From: Constantimarinum furrinae
GTDB taxonomy: Bacteria; Bacteroidota; Bacteroidia; Flavobacteriales; Flavobacteriaceae
Assembly: GCF_014295415.1 (NCBI RefSeq)
Contig: NZ_CP052909.1
Location: 744,001-808,000, forward strand
Direction: 5' to 3'
Length of the DNA stretch: 64,000 nucleotides
Shown here: positions 22,901 to 38,911 of the stretch, piece after piece
Position numbering within the stretch: position 1 is the first letter of the stretch
Layout of the letters: every line of letters starts with the position of its first letter
The notes under the pieces: generated by a model
Database searches by the model: none
The model's input: only the letters and a program-made list of their open reading frames with translations
Told to the model about the DNA's origin: nothing
Made by a program: the position numbers and the translations under genes

Positions 22901-23981
22901 CCCATGCTTCTCCAGTTCCATTCGTGTTTATTTCACCGAAAACGTCGATCACCGAATTGTTAAAATACAATTCTACCGCATCATTACCGTCTACGGTAAT
23001 GTTGGAGGAAATCGCATTGGGTGGAAAACCAAAAAAAGCATCAAATTGAGTGCTTTCGGAGGCGACATAAAGAAAAGTTCCGGCAGTAACCGTACCGGCG
23101 GGAAATACAAACTCCTGTCCGTCACTTCCTCCTCCATTATCGGCAATTCCCAAGCCATAAAGCGTGAGATCTGGAATATCTGTTAGTGCTAATATTTCGA
23201 TGGTCTTAGGAGTGTTTCCTGTCCTTGGGCCATGCAGAACACCTGTTATGATCAAGTCGGTTGGAGGAGGATTAAAGACATTGGTACAATCGAAGGTAGT
23301 TTGTGACGCCGAATAAGTAAGTGAACCGCAGGATTCTTGTCCCGTAGAACCACCGTCAATATCGGTATCTGCAATAGTGACCATGCCGTTGTTGTCCAGA
23401 AAGACGGTGATATCCTGACAAACAGCCACTACCGGATCCACCAGTTCATCTACTGTTACCGTCGCGTTGCAATTCGTCGCGTTACCGGAGGGATCTGTAG
23501 CTGTTAGGGTTACCGTATTGGGTCCTAAGTGCGAACAGTCAAAATTTAGTTGGGAAGCGGTAAGGACTATCCCGCAGTTATCTGTAGAGCCATTGTCAAT
23601 ATCTGAAGGAACAATGGATGCCATGCCAGAGGCATCCAGCTGAATGGTGATATCACGACACAAAGCAATAGGTGACGTAGTATCCTGAACAGTAACCACC
23701 GCTGTACAGGTGTCGGTATTGCCCGAGGTATCTGTAACAGTCAAGATCACGTTGTTGGGTCCGGTATCGCTGCAGTTAAAAGCACTTGGGTTTACAGCAT
23801 ACGAAGCAATGGCCACATTATCTGTTGATCCTCCATCTACATCCAAGGCAGTTATTAGTACATTCCCGGTTGCGTCCAGTTGCACAGTGATATCCTGACA
23901 AACTGCATTGGGCGGTGTAGTATCCTGACCCAAAAGGGATAAGGATAGCAGAAAAAAGAATGGCAATGTAATTTTATACAT
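19950..23981 (-). CDS. Giant T9SS repeat adhesin with lamin-tail-like insert (1343 aa)
   Basis: Signal peptide (SLSLLGQ), then 13 Ig/HYR-type repeats of about 80 residues with pattern CQDITVQLDASG...DVDGGSTDxCGI...FDCSDVGxNxVxLTVTDxNGNSSSCTAxVTVxD. The third repeat is interrupted at residues about 233-415 by a domain resembling lamin-tail (LTD) domains: TDLIITGVLHG, TIEILALTDIPDLTLYGLGI, GNDAVELYFNNSVIDVFGEI. The final repeat is of the HYR type, followed by a T9SS type A C-terminal domain (LFPNPATDRFQVIAS...YLLVIKSEIGYVTKHLIKE). It is thus secreted through T9SS and displayed on the surface. First gene of the six-gene operon behind ACGT-box promoter A. Confidence 0.85.
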   Translation of the reverse strand: MYKITLPFFFLLSLSLLGQDTTPPNAVCQDITVQLDATGNVLITALDVDGGSTDNVAIASYAVNPSAFNCSDTGPNNVILTVTDTSGNTDTCTAVVTVQDTTSPIALCRDITIQLDASGMASIVPSDIDNGSTDNCGIVLTASQLNFDCSHLGPNTVTLTATDPSGNATNCNATVTVDELVDPVVAVCQDITVFLDNNGMVTIADTDIDGGSTGQESCGSLTYSASQTTFDCTNVFNPPPTDLIITGVLHGPRTGNTPKTIEILALTDIPDLTLYGLGIADNGGGSDGQEFVFPAGTVTAGTFLYVASESTQFDAFFGFPPNAISSNITVDGNDAVELYFNNSVIDVFGEINTNGTGEAWEYTGGWIYRKNETSAGNTFNIADWFFSGTHIWNTAMTNATALLPFPTGTYNYTQAGTAAPTMVTLTVTNGNGDSDSCTANVTVRDTIDPVAHCMDITVQLDVNGEAILTDLENNAIAGTSTDNCAVRTFTVEPSAFFCNNIGPNTVLVTVNDVFGNQATCNAIITVEDNVAPNVICQDITVQLDVLGTATITAADVDNGSTDACGIASRTIDVTSFDCSNIGPNNVLLTITDVNGNSSSCTAVVTIEDTVPPEAICQNITVQLDASGMASIVAADIDGGSNAACGISSLSADRTSFSCADLGNNAVVLTVNDTNGNSSNCTATVTVQDLIPPVASVTNITVQLGTSGTVVVSGNSLDNGSTDNCSVATISVSPDTFSCSDVGSPVPVMVTVTDQSGNTDTANAIITVEDSVAPTANCNDITLALDATGNLTITPADIDGGSSVSCGNASLSIDINAFDCSDVGTNNVELTVTNSNGVTSNCTAIVTVVDVTPPNVVCNDISVSLDASGNASITVNDIDGGSTDACGIASRSLDITTFDCSDVGANNVTLTITDVNGNSSSCTAMVTVVDTIPPNAVCQNITVQLNASGTATISPMAVDGGSTDFCGITSRSLDMNSFNCSNVGANTVLLTVTDASGNTDTCSAIVTVVDSTAPTAVCQNITVPLDASGNAFITAAQLDGGSTDACGIGSLSVSNTIFSCNTMGANPVLFTVTDVNGNSSSCTAIVTVVDTVAPTVVCQNITVQLDASGVAFINAANIDAGSFDACGISTMSINTNSFDCDDLGANNVVLSVTDINGNTASCTAIVTVQDNLDPVVNCPPAQTEIVPTGGTFTIPDYFAIGEVTATDNCTSPITLTTQNPVPGTELGLGEYTISTTVEDAQGNTSSCNFQLTVDVILGVEPVDSSERISLFPNPATDRFQVIASGGLQLEKISIFEISGRMVMEIIPKKGITEQMVDASGLSNSVYLLVIKSEIGYVTKHLIKE
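20235..23925 (-). repeat. Coding Ig/HYR-type repeat array of the 1343-aa protein
   Basis: Thirteen tandem units of about 240 bases, each with paired cysteines (CQ/CN at start, FDC in the middle, SSC near the end) and ending with VTVxDxxxP. Twelve units are of the CQDITVQLD type and the last is of the CPPAQT...PDYFAIGE type. The third carries a 180-residue insert. Confidence 0.85.
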
Positions 23982-24006
23982 AATATGGACTTAACATTCT
24001 GTATAT

Positions 24007-24073
24007 CAAATGTAAACCCTTAAAGAATGTAAGTAAATACGTACTGAGTGCCAAAATTTACGTAGGGGTACGT
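24007..24073 (-). promoter_or_regulatory. ACGT-box promoter A (six-gene surface operon)
   Basis: Minus-strand -7 box TACATTTG at 24014-24007 matches TAnnTTTG exactly. After 24 bases, ACGT boxes start at 24039, 24060 and 24070 (offsets 0, 21, 31; the offset-10 box is lost). The -7 box is 26 bases ahead of the start codon at 23981. The usual -33 TTG is missing, as expected for an activator-dependent promoter. Two other sites in the window share this layout to the base. Confidence 0.7.
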
Positions 24074-24075
24074 AG

Positions 24076-24720
24076 TTACAGAGAGAGTATTAATTCCCTG
24101 TTTTCTGCGGTCCACAGAGAGAGTGCATCACCACTGGCCGGCAAATCCAGTTTTGCAATTATATTGGTTCGATGTTTCTGAACCGTTCGGTGTGAAATAT
24201 ATAAAATTTCAGCAATTTCCTTAGATGACTTTTCCTGGGCTACGAGCCTGACGATAGTACGTTCAGATGGAGACAGAAATTTGATCTTTTCGAGTTCGGG
24301 TGAAACCTGGGTCGTAAAAACCTCGTCGAAGGCAGTGCTAAAATACACCTCGTTCCTTACCACTGCATGAATACATTTTTCTAATTCGACAAAAGGCTCG
24401 TCTTTTAAAATATAACCGGAAATATTAAATTTTTTAGCCCTAAGCACAAAACCTTTCTCTTTGTGGGAGGTGAGCAAAATAAATTTTGTCGAGACATTTT
24501 TTTCTCTGCTTTTTTTAATTACTTCAAAGCCTGATAATAATGGCATTTCAATATCAAGAATTGCTACGTCGGGTTGTAATTCGGCTATAAGGTTAAGAGC
24601 TTCAGCCCCATTTCCTGCAGTGGCTGCCACATTAAAACCGTTTTCAGTCAGTTCGTCGGTAAGCCCTTTCAACAGCATTGGATGATCGTCGGCTACAAGT
24701 AAGCTCATGGGTTTGCTCAT
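24076..24720 (-). CDS. NarL/LuxR-type response regulator
   Basis: A 214-residue regulator: receiver domain with acidic pair Asp11-Asp12, phosphoacceptor Asp56 (AILDIEMPL), Thr84 and Lys106 (YILKDEP), then a LuxR-type helix-turn-helix (SPSERTIVRLVAQEKSSKEIAEILYISHRTVQKHRTNI). All phosphorylation residues are intact. Its start overlaps the end of the histidine kinase gene by four bases (ATGA), so kinase and regulator are a translationally coupled pair. The gene ends at the edge of ACGT-box promoter A, making the downstream surface operon its most likely target (inference). Confidence 0.93.
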   Translation of the reverse strand: MSKPMSLLVADDHPMLLKGLTDELTENGFNVAATAGNGAEALNLIAELQPDVAILDIEMPLLSGFEVIKKSREKNVSTKFILLTSHKEKGFVLRAKKFNISGYILKDEPFVELEKCIHAVVRNEVYFSTAFDEVFTTQVSPELEKIKFLSPSERTIVRLVAQEKSSKEIAEILYISHRTVQKHRTNIIAKLDLPASGDALSLWTAENRELILSL

Positions 24721-27707
24721 TTTTTAGGTATTTCGGCTTTTATATATGTTCCCTGTCCTGTTTTACTTTCAATGTTGAGAATCCCATGAAGCATTCGTAC
24801 TCGTTCAGTCATGGTTTTTAAGCCGAGGCTGTTTTTCTTTAATTGAGTGACATGGTCGAAGCCTATGCCATTATCCTTTATTTCCAGAACCACCTTAGAT
24901 TTGGTGTTTGTAATGGTCAATAAGACTGATGTGGCTTCAGAGTGTTTTAAAATATTACTCATACATTCCTGTATAAATCTATAAAAATTCAGCGTTTGTT
25001 GTTCGTTAAATACCGAATCAATATCGTCAATTTCAGAAGAAAAGAACATCGAAGACTTTTCGTCAAGCTCATATACAAGCTGCTCTATACTTTCAGTCAA
25101 CCCCAATTGTTTTAACATCGTGGGATAAAGGCCTCTGGAAATTTCCCTGATCTCTTCCAAAGCATTATGAGTCAATTTAGTAATTGCTTCCTGTTCATCC
25201 TTTTGAGCGCGCTTTTTTATTAGTGTAAGTTGCTGCCCTACACTATCGTGCAGCTCTTTTGCAATACGGGTTCGTTCAACTTCCTGAGACACCATTAAAT
25301 TAGCAGAAAAATCCTCTTGCAGTTTCTTCTTACTTATCGCCTGTTTCAATAAATAATAGAAAAGGCCTGTTAAAATGAAAAGTAGCATACCATAAAACCA
25401 CCATGTCTTATAAAAAAAGTTTTTTGATTGAATTGCCAAGGTTAATGTTTTACCTATTTGCTTTCTTGAGCTGTCCCAGGCTTCAATTTTTAAACGATAG
25501 TTCCCTGCAGCCAGATTTGGAAAGTGAATGGTAGGTTGTTTAATGGGAATCCATTCCGAATTATTTAAACTATATCGATAGCTGTGCTCCCTGTTTGCGA
25601 TATTATTTGTAATACCAAAATCAAGTTCCAATTCTCTATACTCTGAAGGAAGCTCAATAGAGTGATTATTTAGAGCTGTTCGGTCATATTTATCACGTAT
25701 TCCGTTTTTGGAACCATCGTAGTTCCTAACTTTTAAAAGCACAAGTTCCATGTCCTTTTCAATAAAATTCAATGATGTAGGATCGAAATAATTGAGTCCT
25801 TTCAAGGTCCCGGAAAAAATCCCCTTTTCGGTTTTTAAGATGCTGTAGCGGTTCCCTTCATTATGACTTAACCCGTCTTTTTCAAAATAACGCTTCGAGC
25901 TACCATCCAAGCTGTTCCATGCCACCACCCCATTAAAAGTATTGATCCACCAGGTATCTTCTCCATAAGCAATTCCGGCTATACCCACTTCTAATGCATC
26001 CTTATAAATAGATTCCGTTTTATCGGTCTTGGGATCAAAAGTAATTATATCACCCGCGCGGCTACCCAAAATGAAGGGGTAATCCTTATAAGTGTCGGCC
26101 ATTAACAAAAAGGGGTCTTCCATCCCTGGTACATCTTGAAAAAGTTTTGCCTCGCCACTTTTTAAATGATAACTCAAAATGCCTTTATCGGTAGCACCAA
26201 CCACGTATTCCTTTGTGACAGCCAGATCATAGATTACCAGAGAGTCTGTTACGGCCAATGGGGTGTGTTGCTTTGTAACCACATTAAATTCCATAAGGTT
26301 ATATCCTTTCGTACCGTATACCAGTGTACTATCACTTAGGGATTCCAAACATAAAACCGGATAATGTCTATAGGCATTTACCGAAGCGTCTGCTTCAACA
26401 CTAATTATACTGCTAATACTATTACTCCAAAGTCTATTTCCTTTTTTGATAATATTTCTAGAGGATCTCGGTTCGATAGGTACGCCATTTTCAAATAGAT
26501 TATATTTTTTGATCTCATTGCTGGTAGAATTCAGTAAAAACCAACCGTTGTTTTCGGTGGCCACTATATAATTCTCAGAGTCCCGTCGGAAAATAGTGCG
26601 TATGCTTGAGTCCGGGAGGTAGGTTTTTATTTTTTCTGAAGGAAACCTGAAATAATGTAATTCGGTATTCGAGGTCCCGATCCAGACATCTTCTTTTAAA
26701 TTATTTGAAACCGTCTGGATAGCGCTGGAACTTTTAAAATATTCTAAGATGTATTTTTCCTCAAAACCAGTATCCCCCATCGTACTAAAACGTAGCGTCT
26801 CATCATTTACCGAAAAAGACATCGTATTTGAGTAATTGTCTGTATAGATCTCATGCAGATTATTGTTTAATGATCCGTTAGAAATTATTTTAAATTCCTG
26901 TTCGTTTTCATCAACAAAGTACAGTTCGGGGTCGTTGTTCATAAAAACAAAACTTGTATCCCGATTTACAAAAATCTCGTCTATATAGAATTTATTCTTA
27001 ACAATATCCCGCTGTCTTTTAAATGCTTCTCCGGAATATTCTTTTAGTTTTTTTCCATTCCAGCTTAAAAACTGTAAGGGAAAGTTGTCGTCACCTATAA
27101 CGCAAAATTCTTCGAAGGGTATAAATTTAGTGGAGCTATCCAACAGAAAGTTGTATTCAGTTTGGTCGAAACTGAACATCACTGTCATGCTTAGATCATC
27201 ATTTAACCGATTAACGAAAATGGTTTGGTCTTGCTGGGTTAGCAAAATATTATCCTGCTGAACATTAAAAACAGGAGACACTGCTTTTAATCTTGAAGTT
27301 TGTTCAGAAACCAATACCGTAGTAAACGCCATTGTATACGGGTCGAACAATAACATCCTTAAACCCGAAGAAAACCCTGCTTGAACATAAAATTTTCCAT
27401 CGGCTCGCTTATAGATCTGATCGATACGAATTAACCGCTCCTTAAATTCGGGCAAGGGAATAGTATGAAATGATACCCCGTTAAATCGTTGAATCGCTAA
27501 CTTTTTGTCACTTTGAATTATTGTTCTAATATCGAGATTCTCTCCTCCAAGCCATAAAAACCCATCATTATCGAAGGTCATGGCCTTAATAATATCGATC
27601 TCAAGACCTTCTTGTTTTGTAAATATCTTGTGATAAATTTTTCCCTGTTGAGCTCTGGCGTTAAAAAAGAATAATATCGCCACACTAAAAATCAGGAAGT
27701 TCTTCAT
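24717..27707 (-). CDS. Two-component sensor histidine kinase with beta-propeller/Y_Y_Y sensor
   Basis: A 996-residue inner-membrane kinase. It has a signal peptide, then a large periplasmic region with propeller-type repeats (residues about 20-680, e.g. AMTFDNDGFLWLGGENLDIR, EDTWWINTFNGVVAWNS), and a Y_Y_Y domain (about 690-755). One transmembrane helix follows (WWFYGMLLFILTGLFYYLL, about 763-786), then a HisKA_3 dimerisation domain with phospho-acceptor His820 (KELHDSVGQQL), and an HATPase_c domain (N box ECMSNILKHSEA, DNGIGF, GLKTMTERV). It lacks the fused regulator/AraC parts of hybrid systems of this sensor class. The partner regulator overlaps its 3' end. The 18-bp palindrome at 27725-27742 lies just upstream. 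Confidence 0.92.
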   Translation of the reverse strand: MKNFLIFSVAILFFFNARAQQGKIYHKIFTKQEGLEIDIIKAMTFDNDGFLWLGGENLDIRTIIQSDKKLAIQRFNGVSFHTIPLPEFKERLIRIDQIYKRADGKFYVQAGFSSGLRMLLFDPYTMAFTTVLVSEQTSRLKAVSPVFNVQQDNILLTQQDQTIFVNRLNDDLSMTVMFSFDQTEYNFLLDSSTKFIPFEEFCVIGDDNFPLQFLSWNGKKLKEYSGEAFKRQRDIVKNKFYIDEIFVNRDTSFVFMNNDPELYFVDENEQEFKIISNGSLNNNLHEIYTDNYSNTMSFSVNDETLRFSTMGDTGFEEKYILEYFKSSSAIQTVSNNLKEDVWIGTSNTELHYFRFPSEKIKTYLPDSSIRTIFRRDSENYIVATENNGWFLLNSTSNEIKKYNLFENGVPIEPRSSRNIIKKGNRLWSNSISSIISVEADASVNAYRHYPVLCLESLSDSTLVYGTKGYNLMEFNVVTKQHTPLAVTDSLVIYDLAVTKEYVVGATDKGILSYHLKSGEAKLFQDVPGMEDPFLLMADTYKDYPFILGSRAGDIITFDPKTDKTESIYKDALEVGIAGIAYGEDTWWINTFNGVVAWNSLDGSSKRYFEKDGLSHNEGNRYSILKTEKGIFSGTLKGLNYFDPTSLNFIEKDMELVLLKVRNYDGSKNGIRDKYDRTALNNHSIELPSEYRELELDFGITNNIANREHSYRYSLNNSEWIPIKQPTIHFPNLAAGNYRLKIEAWDSSRKQIGKTLTLAIQSKNFFYKTWWFYGMLLFILTGLFYYLLKQAISKKKLQEDFSANLMVSQEVERTRIAKELHDSVGQQLTLIKKRAQKDEQEAITKLTHNALEEIREISRGLYPTMLKQLGLTESIEQLVYELDEKSSMFFSSEIDDIDSVFNEQQTLNFYRFIQECMSNILKHSEATSVLLTITNTKSKVVLEIKDNGIGFDHVTQLKKNSLGLKTMTERVRMLHGILNIESKTGQGTYIKAEIPKK

Positions 27708-27724
27708 TGAATTAGAAAGAATTA

Positions 27725-27742
27725 TACAGAATCAATTCTGTA
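27725..27742. promoter_or_regulatory. 18-bp palindromic operator candidate ahead of kinase gene
   Basis: Perfect 8-2-8 inverted repeat TACAGAATCAATTCTGTA, 17 bases ahead of the kinase start codon and downstream of the preceding gene's terminator. A TAC...GTA palindrome with a two-base centre fits a binding site for a LuxR/NarL-type dimer. No T-run, so it is not a terminator. Confidence 0.5.
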
Positions 27743-27769
27743 AGATACTCAAATTATAAAAACTGCTGT

Positions 27770-27803
27770 AAAAAAAACCTCTCCCGAAAATTCCCGGGAG
27801 AGG
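27770..27803 (-). terminator. Terminator of the giant adhesin gene
   Basis: Perfect 9-bp stem CCTCTCCCG (27778-27786) / CGGGAGAGG (27795-27803), loop of 8, followed on the minus strand by a run of at least eight T. It lies 33 bases beyond the stop of the 2522-residue protein. Confidence 0.92.
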
Positions 27804-27835
27804 CTCATCTTTAAATTAATTAAATTAATCTAAAC

Positions 27836-30800
27836 TTACTCTTTAATGATCTGCTTGGTGATCTGTCCGTTGTCACCACTAATGACAAACAGATAGGTTG
27901 CACTAGCAAGGTCATAGATCTCAATCTGCTTCTCTGTACCCATTCCTTCTAAAGCAATGGTTCTAATGAGTCTTCCCGTAGCATCGTAGATGGCTACATT
28001 GTTTAGATCCAGTCCTTGTGGATTGCTAAGCATTACCACATCTCTGGCAGGGTTCGGATACATAGTAATGCTTCCAAAATCTACCGTGACCTCATCGTTT
28101 CCTAAGATGCTCTCCACCGTTAACTCGAAGGTACAACAGTTCTCATTACCATACTCATCGGTGGCACACACTTCAACAGTGTATACTCCATCGGGGATCT
28201 GAGTTCCGGCTGCCGGAGTTTGAGAGAAGATCGTCACAGGGTCTGTACAATTGTCTGTGGCCGTTGCCTCTCCTGTTGCAAAGTAATCGGGTACAGTATA
28301 GAACAGGTTCCCCGGTCCCGGATCCACGGTCTGATCGGCCGGACAAGTAACATCGGGCCCTAGCAGATCTACTACAGTCACTACCGCAGTACAACTGGCC
28401 AGATTACCGTTAACATCTACGGTAAAGACCGTTACTGTTATCGGAGTGCCTATGTCATCACAATCGAAATCGGTGATGTCTACCGCCGAGGTGGCAATAC
28501 CACAGTTATCGGTGTTGCTGGCGATCACATCATCGGGAGTGATACTGGCCATACCGTTTTCATCCAATTCTAAGGTGATGTCCATACAGGTAAGTACCGG
28601 AGCGATGTTATCTTCAACCGTTACGATGGCCGTACAGGTAGATACATTTCCATTGACATCGGTTACCGTAAGGGTTACCGTATTATCACCTACATCATCG
28701 CAATCGAAGGTATCTGGCGACACACTTAAATCGGCAATACCACAGGCGTCGGTCGATCCTCCGTCTACATCGCTTCCTGTGATCGTTACTGTTCCGGTTG
28801 CATCGAGTTGTACGGTAATATCCATACAGCTGGCTACTGGTGCAGTGACATCTTCTACCGTTACAATGGCCGTACAAGAGCTTACATTTCCGTTTACATC
28901 GGTGATCTCCAACACTACAGGGTTGTCTCCTACATCGGCGCAGGTGAAACTATTTGGTGTTACCGTCATCGAGGCAATTCCACAGTTATCACTACTGCCT
29001 CCATCCACATCTGCCGGAACGATACTTACATTTCCGGTAGCATCAAGTTGTACGGTAATGTCCATACAAACGGCCATGGCCGGTTCATCGTCGGTTACAG
29101 TGATATCGAAGGTACAGGTTGATGTGTTGCCATTAGTATCTGTAGCTGTAAATTCGATCGTGGTGGTTCCTACCGGGAACTGACTGCCACTTGGTGGTCC
29201 CATGGTTTGTACCACTGAGGCAATTCCACAGGCATCCAGCGCAATGGCAGGAGCAAAGCTCACCTCTGCAAAACAGTCGCCCGGAGTGGTACTTGCCGTA
29301 ATATCTGCCGGACAGGCGATCACAGGAGGTACATTGTCTTCCACGGTCACTACTGCCACACAGGTGGACATGTTCCCGTTGACGTCTGTCACGGTAAGGG
29401 TTACATTATTGGGCCCAACATGGCTACAATCGAAATCGGTTTGTGAGGCCGAGATAGAGGCAATGCCACAGGCATCGGTCGATCCGCCGTCGATATCCCC
29501 GGCCACGATACTTGCCATACCGTTATTGTCGAGTTGAATGGTGATGTCCATGCATACGGCCACCGGGGGTACATTGTCTTCCACGGTAACTGTTGCCGTA
29601 CAGGTTGATGAGTTTCCGCTGGTATCTGTAACCGTTAAGGTCACTGTATTTGTACCTACATCTGAACAATCAAAAGTAGATGGAGAAACCGCCAGTGAGG
29701 CAATACCACAGTTATCTGAAGAACCACCATCTACATCACTAGGAACTATACTAGCCATACCATTGGCATCGAGTTGAACCGTAATATCCATACAAACTGC
29801 CATAGGAGGCTCATTGTCGTTTACGGTGACATCAAAACTACAGGTTGCGGTATTTCCACTGGAATCTGTTACAACAAAGGTATTTGTAGTTGTCCCAACC
29901 GGGAAAGCGCTTCCGCTTGGAAGACCGGCTGTTTGCATAGTAGTGGAACCGCTACAGTTGTCTGTTCCTACGGGAGTAGCATAGGTAACTACCGCAGAAC
30001 AGAGCCCCGGATCGTTATTTACAGTGATATTTCCGGGACAAGTGATTACAGGATCTTCGGTATCGTTTACTATAACATCGAAGCTACAGGTTGCCGTGTT
30101 ACCACTAGCATCGGTAACCTCAAAAGTATTTGTGGTGGTTCCAACCGGGAAAGTGCTTCCGCTAGGTAATCCGGCTGTTTGTATAACGGTAGGTTCACTA
30201 CCAACCGCATAACCTATGCGACCGTCAAAAACACGTGGATTATAAACAGCTCCTGAAAAGTGTCCTTGGGTAGCAGAGCCTGAAATAAGTGATAGATCAC
30301 TATTACTAAAAGTTTGGGTAGTACCCGAATTATGATAAACCGGGTCGTGTCCTATATCATAAAGTAATGCAACACCATAATTGGTTCCAGCTAAAAGTGT
30401 AAGTGGTGAATCAAGCTCTAAAATTGAAGTAGCGGGATAGACATTTCCTATTCCTGTTGCAGAAGCAACTAATCCCCCCCACGCAGCTGCATTAGTTTGA
30501 TTTCCAACATAAGTCCCTCCAGATATGATGTATATATCTATATTCATATTACTTCCTTCACCTTGAGTAAATAATTCAATCTCACTCAGCACAATATCAT
30601 TGGATCCAACAGATATGTCGAAATAAAAAGCTCCACCGTCACCGGCTGTTGTTGTAGGAGCATTTCCTGCTTGTAAAGAACTTGTGCCACAATTATCCAT
30701 TACAGTAGGATCTGCATATGTAACCACAGCTCCACAAATTCCAGGATCATTATCAACTACAATATTTGCAGGGCACGAAATGGTTGGAGCTTCAACATCA

Positions 30801-33800
30801 TTCACAGTCACATCAAAACTACAGCTTGCTGTGTTTCCACTAGCATCTGTCACTACAAAAGTATTGGTTGTGGTTCCAACTGGGAAAGTACTACCACTGG
30901 GTAAACCAGCCGTTTGTGTTGTTGTTGATCCCGGACAATTATCGGTTCCTACGGGCGCTGTATACATAACAACCGCTCCACAAATACCCGGGTCATTACC
31001 CACTGTAATATCTGCAGGGCAGGTTATTGCAGGCGGTTCGGTATCGTTAACCGTTACATTAAAAGTACAGGTTGACATATTTCCGGAAGCATCGGTTGCA
31101 GTAGCAGTAACCACAGTTGTTCCTACGGGAAATGCCGAACCTGAAGCAGGGTTATAGGAGATTGTAGTACCCGGGCAATTATCGGTTGCACTTCCGGCAA
31201 AATTGACTACCGCGCTACACATACCTGCTGTGTTACTTACGGTAATATCTGCAGGACATGTAACTACCGGAGGTTCGGTATCGTTTACGGTGACATCAAA
31301 ACTACAGGTAGCAGTATTTCCACTGGTGTCTGTAACTTCAAATGTATTTGTTGTGGTTCCAACAGGGAAGGTACTACCACTAGGCAAACCTGCAGTTTGT
31401 GTAACCATCACAGATTGTTCATAAGAAATTATAATTTCACCATTTCCCGATTGAACACCTGCTAAATTGATTTGATCGGAGCCAACATTGAAGGATCCAC
31501 CACCACCACCTGCACCCCAACCCGGAGTGGAATTGCCTGCCCAACTGTTTCCGCCGCCACCACCGTTGTAACCTCCGCCACCACCACCAGCTCCGGAGAC
31601 TCCGCCGCCGCCACCGCCGCCGCCGAATCCGCCAACAGCAGAGCCAGCGGGAGTGAACCCGCAATTCGGACCTTCATTACCTCCGGCACCTCCGGAAAGT
31701 GGTATAATTCCACCACCGCTCAAAGGAGCATTAGGTGATGCACCATCACCTCCATTTGTAAACCATCCGGCTCCTGCTCCGCCTCCTGCTTCACATGTAG
31801 CCGGTGCAACAAGAGCGCCGCCGCTACCTCCATTTCCACCAGAACCTCCTGCCGAGTTACCACTGCCATTAGTACTATCGCTTGGTGCATTAGTAGCAGA
31901 TCCATCTCCGGGGATTCCATTTCCGTTTCCGGCATTTCCACCACCACCTCCTGCGGCAATTAACAAAGTAGGGCCAGATGTTGTCCAAACAAAAGAACCA
32001 CCACCGCCACCACCGACGCCACCATTATTTGTTCTGCTTCCTCCTTCTCCGCCTACGACAAGATTAAGAGATTCTCCCGGCGTCACGGCGAAAGTTCCCG
32101 AAATAGAAGCACCTAATCCCCCGGAAAATCCACCTTGAGCTCCTGCGGCCTCAATTGTTATAGAGGTAACACCTGCTGGCACCGTGAATGTATCTGTTAC
32201 TCCGGAAAAGGTAAAGGTTTGTGACATTATCACAGGGCAGTTATCGGAAACGTTTACACTATAAAACACCGCAGTTCCACAATCCCCCGGATCGTTACTT
32301 ACTGTTATATTTCCAGGGCAGGTAATCACAGGATCTTCCGTATCGTTTACGATCACATCAAAACTACAGCTTGCTGTGTTTCCACTGGCATCTGTTACTA
32401 CAAAAGTATTGGTTGTGGTTCCTACAGGGAAGGTACTTCCACTAGGTAAACCAGCCGTTTGTGTTGTTGTTGATCCCGGACAATTATCGGTTCCTACGGG
32501 CGCTGTATACATAACAACAGCTCCACAAATACCGGGGTCATTATTCACTGTAATATCTGCCGGACAAGTTATAGCCGGAGGAATATTGTCCTCAACGGTA
32601 ACAGTTGCAGTACAGGTTGCTGTATTTCCGGTACTATCGGTCACCGTTAAGGTCACGGTATTTGGACCAACATCCCCACAATCAAATGTATCCTCATCTA
32701 ACGAAAGGGTAACCGGACCATCAGGGTCACTCGAGCCATTATCTACCTGAGATGCAAGTATAGTCACAGATCCGGTGGCATCTAATTGAACAGTGATATC
32801 TTGACACATTGCGGTAGGTGGTGAATCTACCACCAATACCACATCGTTGCCGTCTCCTCCATCATAATAAATAAATAAGAACTGACCGTTAAACGGAATG
32901 GATGCACCCTGTGCCAAACCGCTAAAGGTACCCGCAACAGGATCGGAGCCATCGTTGTCAATAATTGTAACGGTATCACCTGCTGTAAGAATTCCACCAA
33001 CATTGTCTACTAAAGTCAGGGTAGCATCCGTAACATCAACAGTACCGGTAACAACCAATTGATCAAAGTCTGTCCCCGCTGTAGTAACGGCGGAAATACT
33101 TACGGCAAATATATCTCCTGAGTTCAGAGATACATTTGCGCTCGCAGTGATGATTCCATTACCGGTATTCCCTGCTCGCAACTCTCCGTTAATTTGTAGT
33201 GTTGTTCCACTTATTAGATCTCCGGCAGGAATGCCCGTACTCGAAGTGATCGGTCCAAGATTAGAAGTAAGTGTTACAGGACCGCCGGCGTTGATATCTC
33301 CTGCCCCAGAATTTAAAAATATTGCCGAATTAGTTGCTGCTCCGGCATCACCAATTATAGAAACACCACCAGTTCCGGTAGTATTAATTGCCAAATTTAA
33401 CTGTACTCCGTCATTACCATTTCCCGTAGTATCAGTGGCATCTCCGGAGATCGAAATAGCCCCATCTATGCTGGATATAACAGATCCTGTTCCGGTCAAT
33501 AAAACTCCTCTGTTATTATTACTCCCTGCATTACCACCAGTTCCATCAAGCATAATAGTTCCTACTCCGGTTGTAGATATGGTGGTCTCAGCACCGATTG
33601 TAATTCCGTCATTTAAACTTCCTGAACTAGCACCAGCGGTTCCGGAAATACCAATATTTCCTCCAGCCGAACTAATCGAAGTTACAGGCGTTCCCGAAAA
33701 TATCATTCCGGAATTCTGATTGGTTCCGGATCCATCTCCGACGCCTGTTATTGCTATATTTCCATTAGAGAGGTCGCTTATTGTAATTCCATTAACGAAC

Positions 33801-35404
33801 ACAATTCCGCTATTTTGAATTCCTGAACCGACTCCGGCAGTGCCATCTAAAATTATCCCTCCCCCATTAGATCTAACGGTAGTACCCACTTGTTCAAAAC
33901 TTATACCTCGTTGTCCAGTTACTCCCGTTCCACCCATTCCGGTTAGGGAAACAGAGCCCGTTCCGGTAGATTCCACAGTGCCGCTTTGCATTAAAATACC
34001 AATATTCAAATTTCCAGAGCCATTTCCTCCAGTTCCGTTCAATGATATATTTCCATTTCCAGATTGAATGGTTCCGTTTATCCGGACTCCGAATAGAAAA
34101 TTAGCTCCATTTCCCCCTATACCGTTAATATCAATTATTCCATCGCCGGAAGTCACTGTGGCATTGCCTCTCACCCACACCCCTTGAGTTCCATCTAACG
34201 TACCATCATTGGAACCGTTTCCATTTAAAGACACGGTTCCGGTACCCGTGGCCTGAATGGTTGAAGCATTAAGATCAATTCCAATAAAATTATCTCCAAC
34301 GTTAGGTGAGGTTCCGGCAGTCATATTCACCGCACCATTGCTCACCTCCACTACAGCACCTCCGTTTACCAGGGTGTTACGTTGGGAGGTTGTAATTATG
34401 TCAGCGCCTGCCGTGATATTATCACTAATTGTTAGTGTTTCGGCAATAATCTCAAAATTCCCATTTACTGCAACCGGACCATTTATTAGAGTTACATCGC
34501 CGGTGTCACCACCATCAATTAATCTTAGATTAGTATTGCTATGAGCATTATTTGCGCTGTTTAGGGTGATGCTGTCGGTTCCCGAATTAACATCGAGAAC
34601 AAGCGTGGTATTGTTCCAAGCTGCCATAGATTCGATTGCAACTGCATTGGTGGTTCCGGAGATTACAACAGCGGGTATTGTCCCGGTAGCGAAGTCAAAA
34701 CCATTGTCTAAGGATAAAATCTCAGCATTCCCAGGGGGACTATTAATGAATACAGTGCCGAATCCGGAAAGATCAATAGGTTCTAAACCCTTAAATACAA
34801 ATGTGCTCGAAGCAGTTCTTACAACGCCGTTTCCAGATATGTTACTATCGGGAATGTACTCGGCATTCAAAGACCTATTGCCAATCACCGACATACCGTC
34901 ACCGTCTAAAGTTCGTTGTCCATGACCGTAAAACACTACTTCTTTAAAAAGATCTTCTTCGGAAAGATCGATAGTCAACCAATCATCACCCGATCCACCA
35001 TGGACCACGATGGTTCCAGTTACAAGTCGTTTATTGACAAGAAACCCATTGTTACTTTGAGTACGGATCTGGGATGTAGTATTTTCAGCAGAAATACCTT
35101 GTATTTCAAAACTGTTTCCAATACTCCTAATTTGAATCCAGCTATCAGCAGAAGCCATTTTGGCATCAATTATCAGGTCGCCTGTATGGTTAATATTCAC
35201 CTGTGCCGGGATAGGCCGATTCGTACGTTTTATCGGTTTAGCTGAAGCAGTGTTTTTAAAAGTAGAGCCTGATTGGGCTACTGAAGTACTCTGAAACTTA
35301 CTAATTTCTTTTGGCGTCTCTAAAATTTTTGCCTGACTAAATGAAGAAGCAGGAAAAAGTAAAAATAGTAAGACACCATACAAAAGGGCGGTAATTTTTT
35401 TCAT
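27836..35404 (-). CDS. Giant T9SS adhesin with beta-helix, HYR repeats and two inserted domains (2522 aa)
   Basis: Signal peptide (SSFSQ). Residues about 90-730 are a Gly/Asn/Thr-rich parallel beta-helix with repeating TGTGSVSLNGxGGxGSGxxNxGI pattern. About 733-858 resembles the strand module found next to the passenger of autotransporters (LQINGELRAGNTG...DFDQLVVTGTVDVTDATL...IIDNDGSDPVAGTF). Residues about 860-2430 hold 14 Ig/HYR repeats (8 HYR-type, 6 CxDITVQLD-type). HYR repeats 3 and 6 in this array are split by a Gly-rich domain (about 1060-1330) and by an unassigned domain (about 1572-1735). A T9SS type A sorting domain (MYPNPARDVVMLS...ATYLFVISGDNGQITKQIIKE) ends the protein. It is expected on the cell surface, for adhesion. 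It is monocistronic: ACGT-box promoter B in front, terminator behind. Confidence 0.87.
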   Translation of the reverse strand: MKKITALLYGVLLFLLFPASSFSQAKILETPKEISKFQSTSVAQSGSTFKNTASAKPIKRTNRPIPAQVNINHTGDLIIDAKMASADSWIQIRSIGNSFEIQGISAENTTSQIRTQSNNGFLVNKRLVTGTIVVHGGSGDDWLTIDLSEEDLFKEVVFYGHGQRTLDGDGMSVIGNRSLNAEYIPDSNISGNGVVRTASSTFVFKGLEPIDLSGFGTVFINSPPGNAEILSLDNGFDFATGTIPAVVISGTTNAVAIESMAAWNNTTLVLDVNSGTDSITLNSANNAHSNTNLRLIDGGDTGDVTLINGPVAVNGNFEIIAETLTISDNITAGADIITTSQRNTLVNGGAVVEVSNGAVNMTAGTSPNVGDNFIGIDLNASTIQATGTGTVSLNGNGSNDGTLDGTQGVWVRGNATVTSGDGIIDINGIGGNGANFLFGVRINGTIQSGNGNISLNGTGGNGSGNLNIGILMQSGTVESTGTGSVSLTGMGGTGVTGQRGISFEQVGTTVRSNGGGIILDGTAGVGSGIQNSGIVFVNGITISDLSNGNIAITGVGDGSGTNQNSGMIFSGTPVTSISSAGGNIGISGTAGASSGSLNDGITIGAETTISTTGVGTIMLDGTGGNAGSNNNRGVLLTGTGSVISSIDGAISISGDATDTTGNGNDGVQLNLAINTTGTGGVSIIGDAGAATNSAIFLNSGAGDINAGGPVTLTSNLGPITSSTGIPAGDLISGTTLQINGELRAGNTGNGIITASANVSLNSGDIFAVSISAVTTAGTDFDQLVVTGTVDVTDATLTLVDNVGGILTAGDTVTIIDNDGSDPVAGTFSGLAQGASIPFNGQFLFIYYDGGDGNDVVLVVDSPPTAMCQDITVQLDATGSVTILASQVDNGSSDPDGPVTLSLDEDTFDCGDVGPNTVTLTVTDSTGNTATCTATVTVEDNIPPAITCPADITVNNDPGICGAVVMYTAPVGTDNCPGSTTTQTAGLPSGSTFPVGTTTNTFVVTDASGNTASCSFDVIVNDTEDPVITCPGNITVSNDPGDCGTAVFYSVNVSDNCPVIMSQTFTFSGVTDTFTVPAGVTSITIEAAGAQGGFSGGLGASISGTFAVTPGESLNLVVGGEGGSRTNNGGVGGGGGGSFVWTTSGPTLLIAAGGGGGNAGNGNGIPGDGSATNAPSDSTNGSGNSAGGSGGNGGSGGALVAPATCEAGGGAGAGWFTNGGDGASPNAPLSGGGIIPLSGGAGGNEGPNCGFTPAGSAVGGFGGGGGGGGVSGAGGGGGGYNGGGGGNSWAGNSTPGWGAGGGGGSFNVGSDQINLAGVQSGNGEIIISYEQSVMVTQTAGLPSGSTFPVGTTTNTFEVTDTSGNTATCSFDVTVNDTEPPVVTCPADITVSNTAGMCSAVVNFAGSATDNCPGTTISYNPASGSAFPVGTTVVTATATDASGNMSTCTFNVTVNDTEPPAITCPADITVGNDPGICGAVVMYTAPVGTDNCPGSTTTQTAGLPSGSTFPVGTTTNTFVVTDASGNTASCSFDVTVNDVEAPTISCPANIVVDNDPGICGAVVTYADPTVMDNCGTSSLQAGNAPTTTAGDGGAFYFDISVGSNDIVLSEIELFTQGEGSNMNIDIYIISGGTYVGNQTNAAAWGGLVASATGIGNVYPATSILELDSPLTLLAGTNYGVALLYDIGHDPVYHNSGTTQTFSNSDLSLISGSATQGHFSGAVYNPRVFDGRIGYAVGSEPTVIQTAGLPSGSTFPVGTTTNTFEVTDASGNTATCSFDVIVNDTEDPVITCPGNITVNNDPGLCSAVVTYATPVGTDNCSGSTTMQTAGLPSGSAFPVGTTTNTFVVTDSSGNTATCSFDVTVNDNEPPMAVCMDITVQLDANGMASIVPSDVDGGSSDNCGIASLAVSPSTFDCSDVGTNTVTLTVTDTSGNSSTCTATVTVEDNVPPVAVCMDITIQLDNNGMASIVAGDIDGGSTDACGIASISASQTDFDCSHVGPNNVTLTVTDVNGNMSTCVAVVTVEDNVPPVIACPADITASTTPGDCFAEVSFAPAIALDACGIASVVQTMGPPSGSQFPVGTTTIEFTATDTNGNTSTCTFDITVTDDEPAMAVCMDITVQLDATGNVSIVPADVDGGSSDNCGIASMTVTPNSFTCADVGDNPVVLEITDVNGNVSSCTAIVTVEDVTAPVASCMDITVQLDATGTVTITGSDVDGGSTDACGIADLSVSPDTFDCDDVGDNTVTLTVTDVNGNVSTCTAIVTVEDNIAPVLTCMDITLELDENGMASITPDDVIASNTDNCGIATSAVDITDFDCDDIGTPITVTVFTVDVNGNLASCTAVVTVVDLLGPDVTCPADQTVDPGPGNLFYTVPDYFATGEATATDNCTDPVTIFSQTPAAGTQIPDGVYTVEVCATDEYGNENCCTFELTVESILGNDEVTVDFGSITMYPNPARDVVMLSNPQGLDLNNVAIYDATGRLIRTIALEGMGTEKQIEIYDLASATYLFVISGDNGQITKQIIKE
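30900..30973. repeat. 74-bp perfect direct repeat, copy 1
   Basis: The 74 bases starting GGTAAACCAGCCG are identical to 32445-32518 in the same orientation. Both encode the DNCPGSTTTQTAGLP region of HYR units 5 and 2. The copies are 1545 bases apart and bracket the units with the Gly-rich insert and the next unit. Confidence 0.9.
32445..32518. repeat. 74-bp perfect direct repeat, copy 2
   Basis: Second copy of the 74-base direct repeat at 30900-30973, within HYR unit 2. Synonymous sites are also identical, pointing to recent duplication or gene conversion between units. Confidence 0.9.
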
Positions 35405-35434
35405 AATTGTGAGATTATTAGGTAGTTAGCGGGG

Positions 35435-35501
35435 TAAAGATATTGTTAAAACTTTCTTACTGAAATACGTAAAACCACGTATATATTACGTGCTGTTGCG
35501 T
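35435..35501 (-). promoter_or_regulatory. ACGT-box promoter B (giant adhesin)
   Basis: Minus-strand -7 box TATCTTTA (35442-35435; one mismatch to TAnnTTTG), then 24 bases, then boxes ACGT at 35467, 35477 and 35488 and GCGT at 35498 (offsets 0, 10, 21, 31). The last two boxes lie inside the final codons of the degenerate response regulator gene. The -7 box is 31 bases ahead of the adhesin start codon. Confidence 0.7.
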
Positions 35502-36145
35502 ACAGAAATTTCTTCAATAAAATGTTTATTGTTTGAAAACCAATTCTTTAGATGTTCGGGTTCCATTGATAGCTGTAGTCTGGGTAGGATGGAATTTATT
35601 TGAGTCTTAACTTCTTTAGGTTGAAGTTTTAATTGCTTCGCTATATCTTTAGGAGTCGATCCTCTGGCCAATAATACAAGGAGTTGTTTCTCGATGTCTG
35701 AAAGCGAATCTATCTGCTCACGAAGCTCGGTAGCGCCGGGCATTTTCTTTAGGGATAGAGCCTCACTGAAATACGTGCCTCCCGCAAGGACGGCTTCAAT
35801 ACATTCACTAATGGTTTTTAGAGAATCACCGGAATTAAGTGTACCAGAGATCTTTAACGCCCCAGCCGATATGGAATATTGGTTATGAACATCGGGGAAA
35901 ATGATCACAAATTTGGTTTGTAATTGTTTTTCAGAAACAGTCCTTATAATGTCGAAGGCAGATAATAAGGGGAGTTCGGCATCTAAAATTGCCAATGCAG
36001 GATCATGCTGCAGAATATATTGAAGGATCTTCATTCCACTGGTCGTCTTTTTTACGACACGAAAATTCCTTTTTGTTAATCCGGCAGCTAAACCCTTAAC
36101 AAATACTTCCTGACTGTGAGCCAGGCAAATTGCATGAAATGACAT
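35486..36145 (-). CDS. LuxR-type regulator with degenerate receiver domain
   Basis: A 219-residue protein with the same length and layout as the two neighbouring NarL-type regulators. Its receiver keeps the phospho-acceptor position Asp55 (AILDAELPL) but the acidic pair is His10-Ser11, the Thr/Ser position is Phe83 and the conserved Lys is Ser105 (SGTLNSGDS). Normal Mg-dependent phosphorylation is therefore unlikely. The helix-turn-helix (SDIEKQLLVLLARGSTPKDIAKQLKLQPKEVKTQINSI) is diverged but complete. No kinase gene is attached; it has its own ACGT-box promoter C. It may act as a phosphorylation-independent regulator or a partner of the intact regulators. Confidence 0.85.
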   Translation of the reverse strand: MSFHAICLAHSQEVFVKGLAAGLTKRNFRVVKKTTSGMKILQYILQHDPALAILDAELPLLSAFDIIRTVSEKQLQTKFVIIFPDVHNQYSISAGALKISGTLNSGDSLKTISECIEAVLAGGTYFSEALSLKKMPGATELREQIDSLSDIEKQLLVLLARGSTPKDIAKQLKLQPKEVKTQINSILPRLQLSMEPEHLKNWFSNNKHFIEEISVRNST

Positions 36146-36163
36146 TGGTTAGTTTTAGTCACC

Positions 36164-36230
36164 CCAAGGTAGTAAGGAACTGAGAATAAAAATATAGGTA
36201 GGAACACGTATTTATTACGTAGTAGTACGT
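36164..36230 (-). promoter_or_regulatory. ACGT-box promoter C (degenerate regulator gene)
   Basis: Minus-strand TACCTTGG (36171-36164; one mismatch to TAnnTTTG), then 24 bases, then AGGT at 36196 and ACGT at 36206, 36217 and 36227 (offsets 0, 10, 21, 31). It fills the gap between the intact regulator gene (ends 36239) and the degenerate one (starts 36145). Confidence 0.65.
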
Positions 36231-36238
36231 ACAAATTC

Positions 36239-36889
36239 CTACATTGCCATGATCGTATTCTTGTGAACCAAGGCCCAATTAGTTACCGCATTTGTTCCCC
36301 CTTCCAGCCCTAATTTGACAATAATGTTGCTTCGGTGTTTTTCAACGGTACGCGACGATACACAGAGCGTATCGGCTATTTCATTGGAGGTGTATTGCTG
36401 GGCGATCAACTTTAATATGGTGGTTTCAGAAGGAGTGAGTAAACTTAGTTTACGCAGTTCTTCATTGGCATTCCGAAGCGAAAATGCATCGAAGGATCTG
36501 CTAAAATACTCTTCGTCATTTACTGCCGCCTCTATACATCGTTCCACTTCTTCAAAGGAATCCTCTTTCAGCAAATACCCGTTGATCTGGAGTGCTTTTG
36601 CCTGGGATACATATTCGGCTTCCTTGTGAAAAGAAAGCACTATAAACTTCGTAAGGGATCGCTTCTCTTTTGCGGTTTTAATAACTTCAAAACCCGTTAA
36701 CAAAGGCATATCAATATCAAGTAGCGCTACTGAAGGAGTAAGCGTAAGAATGAGTTCCAGCGCCTGCATTCCGTTTAGCGCCTGCCCCACTACTTTATAG
36801 CCGTGGGATTCAAGTTCATCCTGTAAGCCTTTAAGGAGCATGGGATGATCGTCTGCAATTACGATGGTTATATTTCCTTTATTCGTCAC
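36239..36889 (-). CDS. NarL/LuxR-type response regulator
   Basis: A 216-residue regulator with an intact receiver: Asp13-Asp14 (IADDHPMLLKGL), phospho-acceptor Asp58 (ALLDIDMPLLTGFEVI), Ser86, Lys108 (YLLKEDS). LuxR-type DNA-binding domain: TPSETTILKLIAQQYTSNEIADTLCVSSRTVEKHRSNI. It is a close paralog of the regulator at 24076-24720. It starts three bases after the TPR histidine kinase gene, forming a cognate pair. Its 3' end abuts ACGT-box promoter C. Confidence 0.93.
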   Translation of the reverse strand: MTNKGNITIVIADDHPMLLKGLQDELESHGYKVVGQALNGMQALELILTLTPSVALLDIDMPLLTGFEVIKTAKEKRSLTKFIVLSFHKEAEYVSQAKALQINGYLLKEDSFEEVERCIEAAVNDEEYFSRSFDAFSLRNANEELRKLSLLTPSETTILKLIAQQYTSNEIADTLCVSSRTVEKHRSNIIVKLGLEGGTNAVTNWALVHKNTIMAM

Positions 36890-36892
36890 TGG

Positions 36893-38911
36893 CTAAATGG
36901 CTATAGCAAGAAAAATGGTGGTACCTTTTTCGGGGGAGCTCTCTATTTTTATTTCCGAACCTAAAATTTTCGACCGTTCTAATAGCGTTTTCATTCCCAG
37001 GGTACTCACATTTCCAATTTTTTCTGAATATACAAAACCTTTCCCGTTATCTCGAATCACGGCCTGAATTAAATTTGCCTTCTTCTCTATAATTACTGAA
37101 GCAGCACGGGCTTCGGAATGTTTTACCATATTATTGAGCACTTCCTGAATGATCCTGTACAAATGTAATGAAGCTTCTTTAGTAAGTGCGTTATCAATAT
37201 TTTCAATTTCATTTGTAAAGAAAATGTCTGTATTGGCATCCACTTCGTTGATAAGTGAAGTAATTGCCGCGGTAACGCCTAATTTTTCCATAGTGGAGGG
37301 ATGTAATCCGCGTGAGATACTTCGTAATTCATCCAGGGTGGTTTCTGCCAGAGATTCCATATCGGTATTGCCTGTACTTTTCGTCTTTTTGGTAAGTAAC
37401 ATTAGCTTTTGCCCTACGCTATCGTGTAACTCCCGAGCCACCCGGGTTCGTTCCTCTTCCTGAGCCTGGATCAAATTTCTGGAGTACTCTTCCTGCGTTC
37501 GCTGTCGTCTTCTTGCGAAGTTTCGCGAACGAACCAAAACCACTCCCCCAAATAACACAACTAATCCCAGTCCGCCAAAGAGCAACCACTGATTCTTAAT
37601 TTTATTCTCGGCATTTAACAGGGCAATATCACCCTTTTGTGCCACAATTGTCGCATCCCGTTTTTCGGTTTCATACAGGGTTTGATAATAGGACAATGCT
37701 TTTACCTTTTGAACACTATTTATTGAATCCCTTAAGCGGGTATATCGTTTAAAGTGATTCAAAGCCTCTACAGCATTACCCATGGCTTCATAGACTTCAG
37801 ACAAAAACTTTTCTGCTCCCTGTATTTCTTCAAAATGAGATCCCCGCGCTTTTAATTCCAGATGCTCTTTCCCATAGTCCAATGCTTCAGGGTAATTCCC
37901 TTTTGCAAAAGCAATATTCTTTAATACCTCAACATAAGGCTCTCTGTTTCGGCCCTCAATATCCACATTGGGAATAGCTTCCATTTCCCGAAGAAACTGT
38001 TCTGCAAGTTCCAGACTATCGGTTTGCGCATAGGCTATTGCCAGAGTACTGAGCATGGTAACATCATAAAATGAGGGATTCTTACTTTTTCGACCTGCTT
38101 CCAGACCCATTTTTAAGTAAAGGATACGCTGTACTTCATTTCCCTGTTTTCTATGATCGGTTGCGGCATTGTAATAAAAGCTAGCAAGATGACCGTAGCT
38201 CTCCTTTATCTTAGCAAGTTCTATGGCCTCATCCCTCTCTTGTTTTGCCTCTTCAATAAAACCATTCTGACTGTAGAGAACAGACAATGAATTGCGAGCA
38301 CTTATGATATTAAACGTATCTTTTCGTTCCTGAAAGAGTCTGGCAGCCTCCTGTAATAATATAGAAGCTTGAGAAAAATTTCCCATAAAACTCAGCGTTT
38401 GCCCCTTATACAGTTTGGCCAGGCCCTCAAATCTTTTATGCCCTCCGGCATGCGCATTCTCTTCGGCTAGATCATAATACTTTATGGAAGTCTCGTGTTT
38501 CTCAATAAAGTAATAACTATCGGCGCCTTCCAGATAAAATTTTGCCAAGGCGACTGGGTCTTCACACTTACGGGCCGTTGGCAGGAATTTTAAAAAAATG
38601 TTGTTTCCTTGTTCGGGGTTTCCTACAATATTATTCTGAAAATAAATTAGATTAGCCGTTTGCCATGTTGCTACAGATAGAGAGTCGAGGGTTAGTGCAT
38701 AGTCGACGGTAGCCTTAACCAGAGAATCATTTTGATAATCGGTCTTTGAAACGATATAATTGGAAAGGCTGTCCATCCATTTCAATCGGTCACCATTTTC
38801 AGAACGATCAATTTTTTGATAAAGTGCTTTTATTTCCTTAGTAGAGGTAGCGTCTTGTGCCATTATATGACAGCAGCTAAAGGCAATAAATACGACTATA
38901 TATTTCTGCAT
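36893..38911 (-). CDS. Two-component sensor histidine kinase with periplasmic TPR sensor
   Basis: A 672-residue kinase with signal peptide (FSCCHIMAQ). About 400 residues of TPR repeats follow (e.g. AKFYLEGADSYYFIEKHETSIKYYDLAEENA, EALDYGKEHLELKA), then one transmembrane helix (about 442-460), a HisKA_3 domain with phospho-acceptor His496 (RELHDSVGQKLMLL), and HATPase_c (EVLNNMVKHSEAR, DNGKGF, GMKTLLERSKILG). The TPR sensor probably binds a periplasmic protein partner. The regulator gene follows after three bases. It diverges from radA over 51 bases. Confidence 0.93.
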   Translation of the reverse strand: MQKYIVVFIAFSCCHIMAQDATSTKEIKALYQKIDRSENGDRLKWMDSLSNYIVSKTDYQNDSLVKATVDYALTLDSLSVATWQTANLIYFQNNIVGNPEQGNNIFLKFLPTARKCEDPVALAKFYLEGADSYYFIEKHETSIKYYDLAEENAHAGGHKRFEGLAKLYKGQTLSFMGNFSQASILLQEAARLFQERKDTFNIISARNSLSVLYSQNGFIEEAKQERDEAIELAKIKESYGHLASFYYNAATDHRKQGNEVQRILYLKMGLEAGRKSKNPSFYDVTMLSTLAIAYAQTDSLELAEQFLREMEAIPNVDIEGRNREPYVEVLKNIAFAKGNYPEALDYGKEHLELKARGSHFEEIQGAEKFLSEVYEAMGNAVEALNHFKRYTRLRDSINSVQKVKALSYYQTLYETEKRDATIVAQKGDIALLNAENKIKNQWLLFGGLGLVVLFGGVVLVRSRNFARRRQRTQEEYSRNLIQAQEEERTRVARELHDSVGQKLMLLTKKTKSTGNTDMESLAETTLDELRSISRGLHPSTMEKLGVTAAITSLINEVDANTDIFFTNEIENIDNALTKEASLHLYRIIQEVLNNMVKHSEARAASVIIEKKANLIQAVIRDNGKGFVYSEKIGNVSTLGMKTLLERSKILGSEIKIESSPEKGTTIFLAIAI

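Follow-up and report, generated by a model that had tools for sequence, protein, structure and literature searches.

Response regulators (RRs) of the NarL/FixJ type can drive small RNAs from palindromic upstream sites, as in the GacA-rsm pathway, and to our knowledge activator sites have hardly been described in the Bacteroidota. In the excerpts cited here, the 7-2-7 site of NarL is an inverted repeat of 16 bp (PMC4549865), and NarL activates yeaR from one site and ogt from two, the proximal ogt site being centred at -44.5 and abutting the -35 element (PMC7419079, PMC4549865). A published FixJ probe contains TTACGTAG; the available portion of that paper does not give the part touched by FixJ (PMC11164954). 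Promoters of Flavobacterium psychrophilum have a -7 box mapped at -12 to -5 and a median leader of 24 nt, and the list of SM5 promoters in this species includes the gliding operon remFG-sprCDBF, with an alternative sigma factor thought likely (PMC9723704, in the portion available). The string ACGT has 0 occurrences in the main text of that paper.

The locus described here lies in the window, the whole stretch of 64,000 nucleotides of Constantimarinum furrinae DNA that was analysed, and all its genes are on the minus strand, arranged as HK1-RR1-[C]-aRR-[B]-HYR2522-HK2-RR2-[A]-HYR1343, where A, B and C are three arrays of ACGT boxes. We regard it as highly probable that these boxes are operators of NarL/FixJ-type RRs, at which one dimer per box pair activates transcription, with RR1 acting at sites C and B and RR2 at site A. 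The features are as follows, in minus-strand order.

36893 to 38911, minus strand: HK1, sensor histidine kinase (TPR, HisKA_3, HATPase_c; Pfam)
36239 to 36889, minus strand: RR1, NarL/FixJ-type response regulator (REC and GerE, Pfam; helix SSRTVEKHRSNI)
36196 to 36230, minus strand: site C, predicted four-box operator, ACGT-ACGT-ACGT-ACCT, the promoter-proximal box (36196 to 36199) being ACCT
36164 to 36171, minus strand: site C -7 box, TACCTTGG, with the 24-nt gap to the array
35486 to 36145, minus strand: aRR, orphan atypical response regulator with a degenerate receiver and an altered HTH helix (KEVKTQINSIL)
35467 to 35501, minus strand: site B, predicted four-box operator, ACGC-ACGT-ACGT-ACGT, the distal box being ACGC; overlaps the aRR stop codon
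35435 to 35442, minus strand: -7 box of site B, TATCTTTA
27836 to 35404, minus strand: HYR-repeat protein of 2522 aa with a type IX secretion tail (Por_Secre_tail; Pfam)
24717 to 27707, minus strand: HK2, sensor histidine kinase (HisKA_3, HATPase_c; Y_Y_Y below cut-off; Pfam)
24076 to 24720, minus strand: RR2, NarL/FixJ-type response regulator (helix SHRTVQKHRTNI; Pfam)
24039 to 24073, minus strand: site A, predicted operator with a distal pair, TACGTACCCCTACGTA, and a single proximal box (24039 to 24042), ACGT-ACGT-(no box)-ACGT, the third position being empty
24007 to 24014, minus strand: -7 box of site A, TACATTTG
19950 to 23981, minus strand: HYR protein of 1343 aa (Por_Secre_tail; Pfam)

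HK1-RR1 and HK2-RR2 each consist of a receiver plus GerE HTH regulator encoded with a HisKA_3 kinase (Pfam). RR1 and RR2 are about 50% identical, and the best PDB sequence match of RR1 is NarL 1a04 (E 3.5e-24). As judged from their sequence, the units behind the three sites encode HYR proteins secreted by the type IX system and one RR of atypical form. In the latter, aRR, the acidic pair of the receiver is lost; its relatives at L104 (8998-9390) and L107 (8943-9305) are without an HTH and keep the position between two box arrays, and a relative in L090 retains RTIEKHRSNII. A search for aRR relatives in named genomes confirmed none. Because the receiver acids are lost and the HTH is absent in L104 and L107, site B probably has an activator other than aRR. 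The earlier note had placed all three sites directly behind LuxR-type regulator genes; a REC+GerE gene does precede each of them, but the "three regulators" are probably two, the aRR before B being degenerate.

Direct reading and recomputation agree on the layout that this note had reported: the boxes fall at offsets 0/10/21/31 at A, B and C (counted on the minus strand from the promoter-distal end), with nine of the twelve an exact ACGT, two carrying one mismatch and one absent. The last box is separated from the -7 box by exactly 24 nt at every site (TACATTTG, TATCTTTA and TACCTTGG at A, B and C), as had also been claimed, and the same gap recurs in relatives; the -7 box of site C is TACCTTGG, and those of A and B have the form TAnnTTTR. 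Relative to the stop codon of the REC+GerE gene, the array starts 8 nt after it at C and 2 nt after it at A, and overlaps it at B. A 16-bp inverted repeat, TAC...GTA (TACGTA-N4-TACGTA), is present at B and C, where it includes the one-mismatch boxes, and in the distal pair of A. The box offset in pairs is 10 bp, or 9 bp in some relatives. Taking -12 as the first position of the -7 box, by analogy to the mapped F. psychrophilum promoters (PMC9723704, in the portion available), gives predicted leaders of 14-26 nt for the three promoters, and predicted transcription starts near 24002, 35430 and 36159 on the minus strand.

The size of the TAC...GTA repeat, which matches the NarL 7-2-7 site, leads us to infer a NarL-like dimer on each pair. 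Each ACGT pair 10 bp apart (16 bp) would then take one RR dimer in the 7-2-7 geometry, and two pairs 21 bp apart would take two dimers on one DNA face. With transcription starts placed by analogy to F. psychrophilum, the proximal pair would lie at about -51 to -36, centred at -43.5 and abutting the -33 TTT, and the distal pair would have its centre two helical turns further up, at -64.5. The bound and presumably phosphorylated RR would recruit RNA polymerase to a promoter with a -7 box TAnnTTTR or TAnnTTGY 24 nt downstream. In the predicted pairing of regulators and sites, HK1-RR1 would drive site C (aRR) and site B (the 2522-aa HYR protein), and HK2-RR2 would drive site A (the 1343-aa HYR protein). 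What is observed directly is the box layout, the gap, their conservation, the adjacency to one RR clade, the course of operator subtypes along the RR tree and the domains of the target proteins. Repression in place of the predicted activation, by an RR that blocks RNA polymerase at the -33 region, would suit a proximal box that abuts the -33 TTT, yet it seems quite unlikely, since the sites lie upstream of, and not over, the -7/start region, and a NarL 7-2-7 site just upstream of -35 activates yeaR while tandem sites activate ogt (PMC7419079, in the excerpt cited).

The arrangement was followed in relatives through 86 RR rows, comprising 55 non-window matches at 349-197 bits (among the matches listed), 28 chosen among the lower-scoring matches (for the most part those next in rank, with paralogs of genomes already represented) and the three window genes. 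Box pairs with up to one mismatch were present at -60 to +350 of the RR stop in 70 of the 86 rows, compared with 10 of 86 when a stretch of the same length within the RR genes was taken. Between a box pair and a full TAnnTTTR, the 24-nt gap gave 34 matches and every other gap from 5 to 60 nt gave 0-2, except 34 (7), 44 (5) and 45 (16), peaks that arise because other boxes of the same arrays are counted. One-miss -7 boxes numbered 16 at gap 24 and no more than 9 at any other gap, and a stricter scan retained 24 rows at gap 24 versus 0-4 at each of 21 other gaps. When TAnnTTGY was added, 47 gap-24 matches were obtained in 39 of the 86 rows (13 of the 47 in the TAnnTTGY form), versus 0 on the reverse strand at the same gap. 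A logo of 52 sites shows TTT, the -33 element, directly after the proximal TACGTA, with conserved boxes and differing spacers. No anchored site was found in 16 of the 86 rows, and 25 more had a proximal box only, some of these at chance level.

Conservation of the boxes where RR1 is kept, a point raised in the earlier note, thus holds in part. The pairs behind the RR genes recur as described, but an array of at least 11/16 behind RR1 is absent in 30 of 41 RR1 relatives from named genomes (at least 47% identity), 19 of these 30 being Aequorivita. By a loose pair criterion, the RR1 relatives (9/41) show no excess over distant homologs (9/39), and the 24-nt gap occurs in 3 versus 0; this set of 41 overlaps in part with the loci behind the 86 rows and is not fully independent of them. 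The order RR1-[boxes]-aRR-[boxes]-giant T9SS protein also occurs in L104 and L107, with a few mismatched letters in the boxes. Two arrays about 475 bp apart stand behind RR1 in L297 and L298 (uncultured Winogradskyella and Lacinutrix loci), and the arrangement at L092, RR1-[four boxes]-HK2-RR2-[distal pair+1]-HYR, is much like that of the window. The downstream giants of relatives carry Por_Secre_tail in 5/5 of a chosen set.

Counting the four-box pattern by itself gave a less clear picture. With up to three mismatches the window contains two matches, versus a shuffle mean of 0.18, and at least two were reached in 2 of 100 shuffles. With up to two mismatches the whole genome contains B and C only, so that this genome has no genome-wide four-box regulon at that setting, and the reversed control matches at 4 places. 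Across the family, at up to one mismatch, there are 10 places in 8 of 397 genomes, and the reversed control has 25 places in 24 genomes. Because the reversed control yields as many matches or more, the pattern alone is weak evidence and raw counting was dropped; the weight of the evidence lies in the position behind RR genes and the occurrence in relatives. Eight of the 10 family places overlap or follow, by up to about 220 nt, the end of an RR or aRR gene (two each in G000 and G359, one each in G123, G324, G301 and G109), and the other two (G194, G278) are not behind such a gene. The 0/10/21/31 layout gave 11 matches at 15/16 or better, and each of 24 other symmetric layouts gave 0, in 94 sequences (985 kb) made up of the window and loci around RR1-type genes, with some contigs present twice. 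The four-box searches do not reach site A, whose mismatches are too many, and support for it comes from its class of related sites.

The element with its exact gap behaves differently from the bare pattern. Among 199 Flavobacteriaceae genomes, 64 contain ACGT-N6-ACGTATT-N21-TANNTT, at 164 places in all, and its reversed control has 3 places. In the phylum, the TANNTTT form occurs in 8 of 296 genomes, at 21 places among those listed (control, 1 place); the draw contained 30 family genomes, which account for six of the 8, and the other 266 account for two. A search of this kind had been proposed earlier; exact-gap matches are far above control family-wide, and the raw four-box counts fall below their control both in this genome and in the family. 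A chance origin in AT-rich DNA is unlikely given the register, the gap and the family-wide counts. Joined with recent duplication, by which copied promoters would mimic the layout, it has in our estimate a negligible probability: the window shuffles do reach two matches now and then, the bare pattern is not above its control, and B and C flank related genes, but register and gap are specific, the family-wide excess is large, and the boxes are kept while the spacers differ.

Four of this genome's 13 GerE genes are followed by a perfect pair no more than 30 bp from the stop codon, namely RR1, RR2, aRR and the RR gene at 1280129-1280743, which adjoins a gene that we take to be sucB-like. The other nine have 0 perfect pairs within 30 bp, and three of them have a one-mismatch pair 144-288 nt further on. 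Many sites of the element stand elsewhere in genomes, with no RR gene adjoining. The motif is thus not limited to the units to which the earlier note tied it, and also occurs elsewhere in the genome and the family. Such a wide spread, with many sites away from RR genes, is what one would expect if an unlinked DNA-binding protein bound the boxes and the RR genes were merely upstream of its promoters. We consider this very unlikely, as the only GerE genes of this genome closely followed by a perfect pair all belong to this clade or are its degenerate copy, the operator subtype tracks the RR phylogeny, and the 16-bp TAC...GTA geometry is NarL-like.

The operators fall into three classes that go with the branches of the RR tree: the four-box class with the RR1 type, the class of a distal pair plus one proximal box with the RR2 clade, and that of a single proximal pair with a paralog clade. 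Among the 52 subtyped rows, 5 changes on the tree suffice; over all labels there are 18, versus a shuffled mean of 42.9, and 0 of 200 shuffles were as low, the labels being assigned by thresholds set in this analysis, which leave 34 of the 86 rows without a subtype. The RR2 clade (35 rows) has 20 distal-plus-one, 1 pair and 14 none; the paralog clade (24 rows) has 21 pair and 3 none; and the remaining 27 rows have 7 four-box, 2 pair, 1 distal-plus-one and 17 none. The four-box form is found in 0 of the 35 RR2-clade rows, and 11 RR2-clade rows in the 31-bp register have 0-1 of 4 letters at the position of site A's missing box (fewer than 3 by class definition). For these two reasons, the gap in site A looks like a feature of its class. 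The recognition helix goes only loosely with subtype because E and Q are mixed within clades: at the RT[VI]QKHR position, the RR2 clade has Q in 18 of 35 rows (including the RR2 of the window), E in 16 (as in RR1) and D in 1, the paralog rows have E in 16/24 and D in 8/24, and the others have E in 26/27.

Sites B and C probably belong to HK1-RR1 and site A to HK2-RR2, and since the subtypes differ by RR clade and no RR2-clade row is four-box, two related but separate regulators appear likelier than one regulon. A single activator binding all three sites, with cross-binding by the paralogous RRs, is a rather unlikely alternative; it would account for the half-site, spacing and 24-nt gap common to A, B and C, and fits the identity between RR1 and RR2 and a recognition helix without a clean split by clade (18/35 Q, 16 E), but it sits poorly with the subtypes that follow the tree and with the place of each site, which comes after an HK-RR pair of its own or after the aRR downstream of that pair. 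The earlier proposal of one regulon tying the three units together accordingly lacks support in that form, B and C being of the four-box RR1 type and A of the distal-pair-plus-one RR2-clade type. The undescribed activator-operator set into which it was built survives in its helical spacing, its link to LuxR/NarL-type regulators and its activator-like position.

Assigned to two regulators in this locus, the pattern is very probably a landing site for regulators that activate genes for surface proteins and, in other places, small RNAs and further genes. A relaxed promoter scan of this genome (up to two mismatches) found 12 places versus 7 control places, so that single matches are to be read as candidates. 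Two are exact: L171, at an sRNA-like unit, and L172, in a region that we read as pfkA-like. L173 (one mismatch) has a curlin-repeat gene about 320 bp downstream (Pfam); at this locus (224477-224552), divergent ACGT operators with one and two mismatches lie between the curlin-repeat gene and another that is presumably glutamine synthetase. L174 (one mismatch) precedes a 45-aa membrane protein. At L174 (1358-1495) and at the same place in several relatives, a protein of 40-60 aa with one likely membrane span (by eye) lies directly behind a paralog HK-RR, which adjoins the presumed sucB-like gene, with a single-pair operator upstream, and possibly feeds back on the kinase.

The sRNA-like unit is about 70 nt long, with GCTATTAATTAGTTCTTAGGGAGAATTA at its 5' end and a terminator-like hairpin, and is seen at L230-L234, L161, L157 and, in this genome, L171 at about 1540-1640. 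An alignment of 27 of the 37 matched copies shows compensatory changes in 12 of the 19 base pairs predicted; nine of these belong to the terminator and the other three to the 5' hairpin. Copies are often tandem, about 145 bp apart in L230, and an ACGT operator lies within 80 nt upstream in 33 of 37. In a scan of ten loci, no Rfam family was found at gathering score.

The element also precedes antiphage-type genes (TIR/ThsB, GajA, FRG, Drt3a, PDC-M49A and others) at L190, L196, L207, L244 and L251, and further such loci are L253, L257, L259, L263 and L265. In six genomes, site-driven genes of at least 150 aa (27 eligible) had PADLOC matches at 1e-8 in 6 of 20 unselected cases, or 7 of 23 with three viewed earlier, and neighbour genes had them in 4 of 20, two of which lie downstream on the same strand as the site-driven gene. 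For a link of the element to antiphage genes, these counts are no more than suggestive.

As a tentative and less favoured extension, one operator code may be read by a clade of paralogous HK-RR pairs as a family-wide control layer. The targets of hub regulators would be an unlisted small RNA in tandem copies, together with antiphage genes, curli-like fibres and a small membrane protein; giant adhesins secreted by the type IX system would fall to dedicated HK-RR pairs, which would use two-dimer versions of this code. With a motif in exact register to its promoter, the regulons of a large bacterial family can be predicted from sequence, and two-component systems become linked to surface adhesin-like proteins. 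The exact pair, 24 nt and -7 box offer a handle for finding targets, including small RNAs and perhaps defence genes.

Among open-licence PMC papers and title listings, no print record of the motif or of these regulators was located, nor a paper linking TACGTA to a flavobacterial promoter or RR; the earlier note likewise knew of no described Bacteroidota motif of this form. Compared with known systems, the small-RNA-like units behind operator sites resemble GacA-rsm, but this is not the Rsm pathway, as CsrA (PF02599) is absent in 8 of 8 genomes examined. The FixJ recognition helix, which we take to be RTVEVHR, resembles RTVEKHR, and we know of no evenly spaced four-box array for FixJ. Like the present boxes, the published FixJ probe contains TTACGTAG (PMC11164954, in the excerpt cited). 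TAnnTTGY, the -7 box of the SM5 promoters, is seen in a minority of the gap-24 matches (13 of 47); site C has TACCTTGG, and A and B have TAnnTTTR. The heptamer here is TACGT[AG]n and that of NarL TACYYMT, so that the geometry is the same but these are not NarL sites proper. As in the yeaR-yoaG and ogt sites of E. coli NarL, in the excerpts cited, a 16-bp TAC...GTA repeat occurs singly or in tandem with one dimer per site (here predicted), and the site nearer the promoter abuts the -35 element (-33 here), with its centre at -44.5 in ogt and, by prediction, near -43.5 here; unlike in ogt, where the centres are at -44.5 and -77.5, the pair centres here are 21 bp apart (PMC7419079, PMC4549865). 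Also unlike NarL, the sites serve a Bacteroidota -33/-7 promoter and often lie just behind the RR gene itself.
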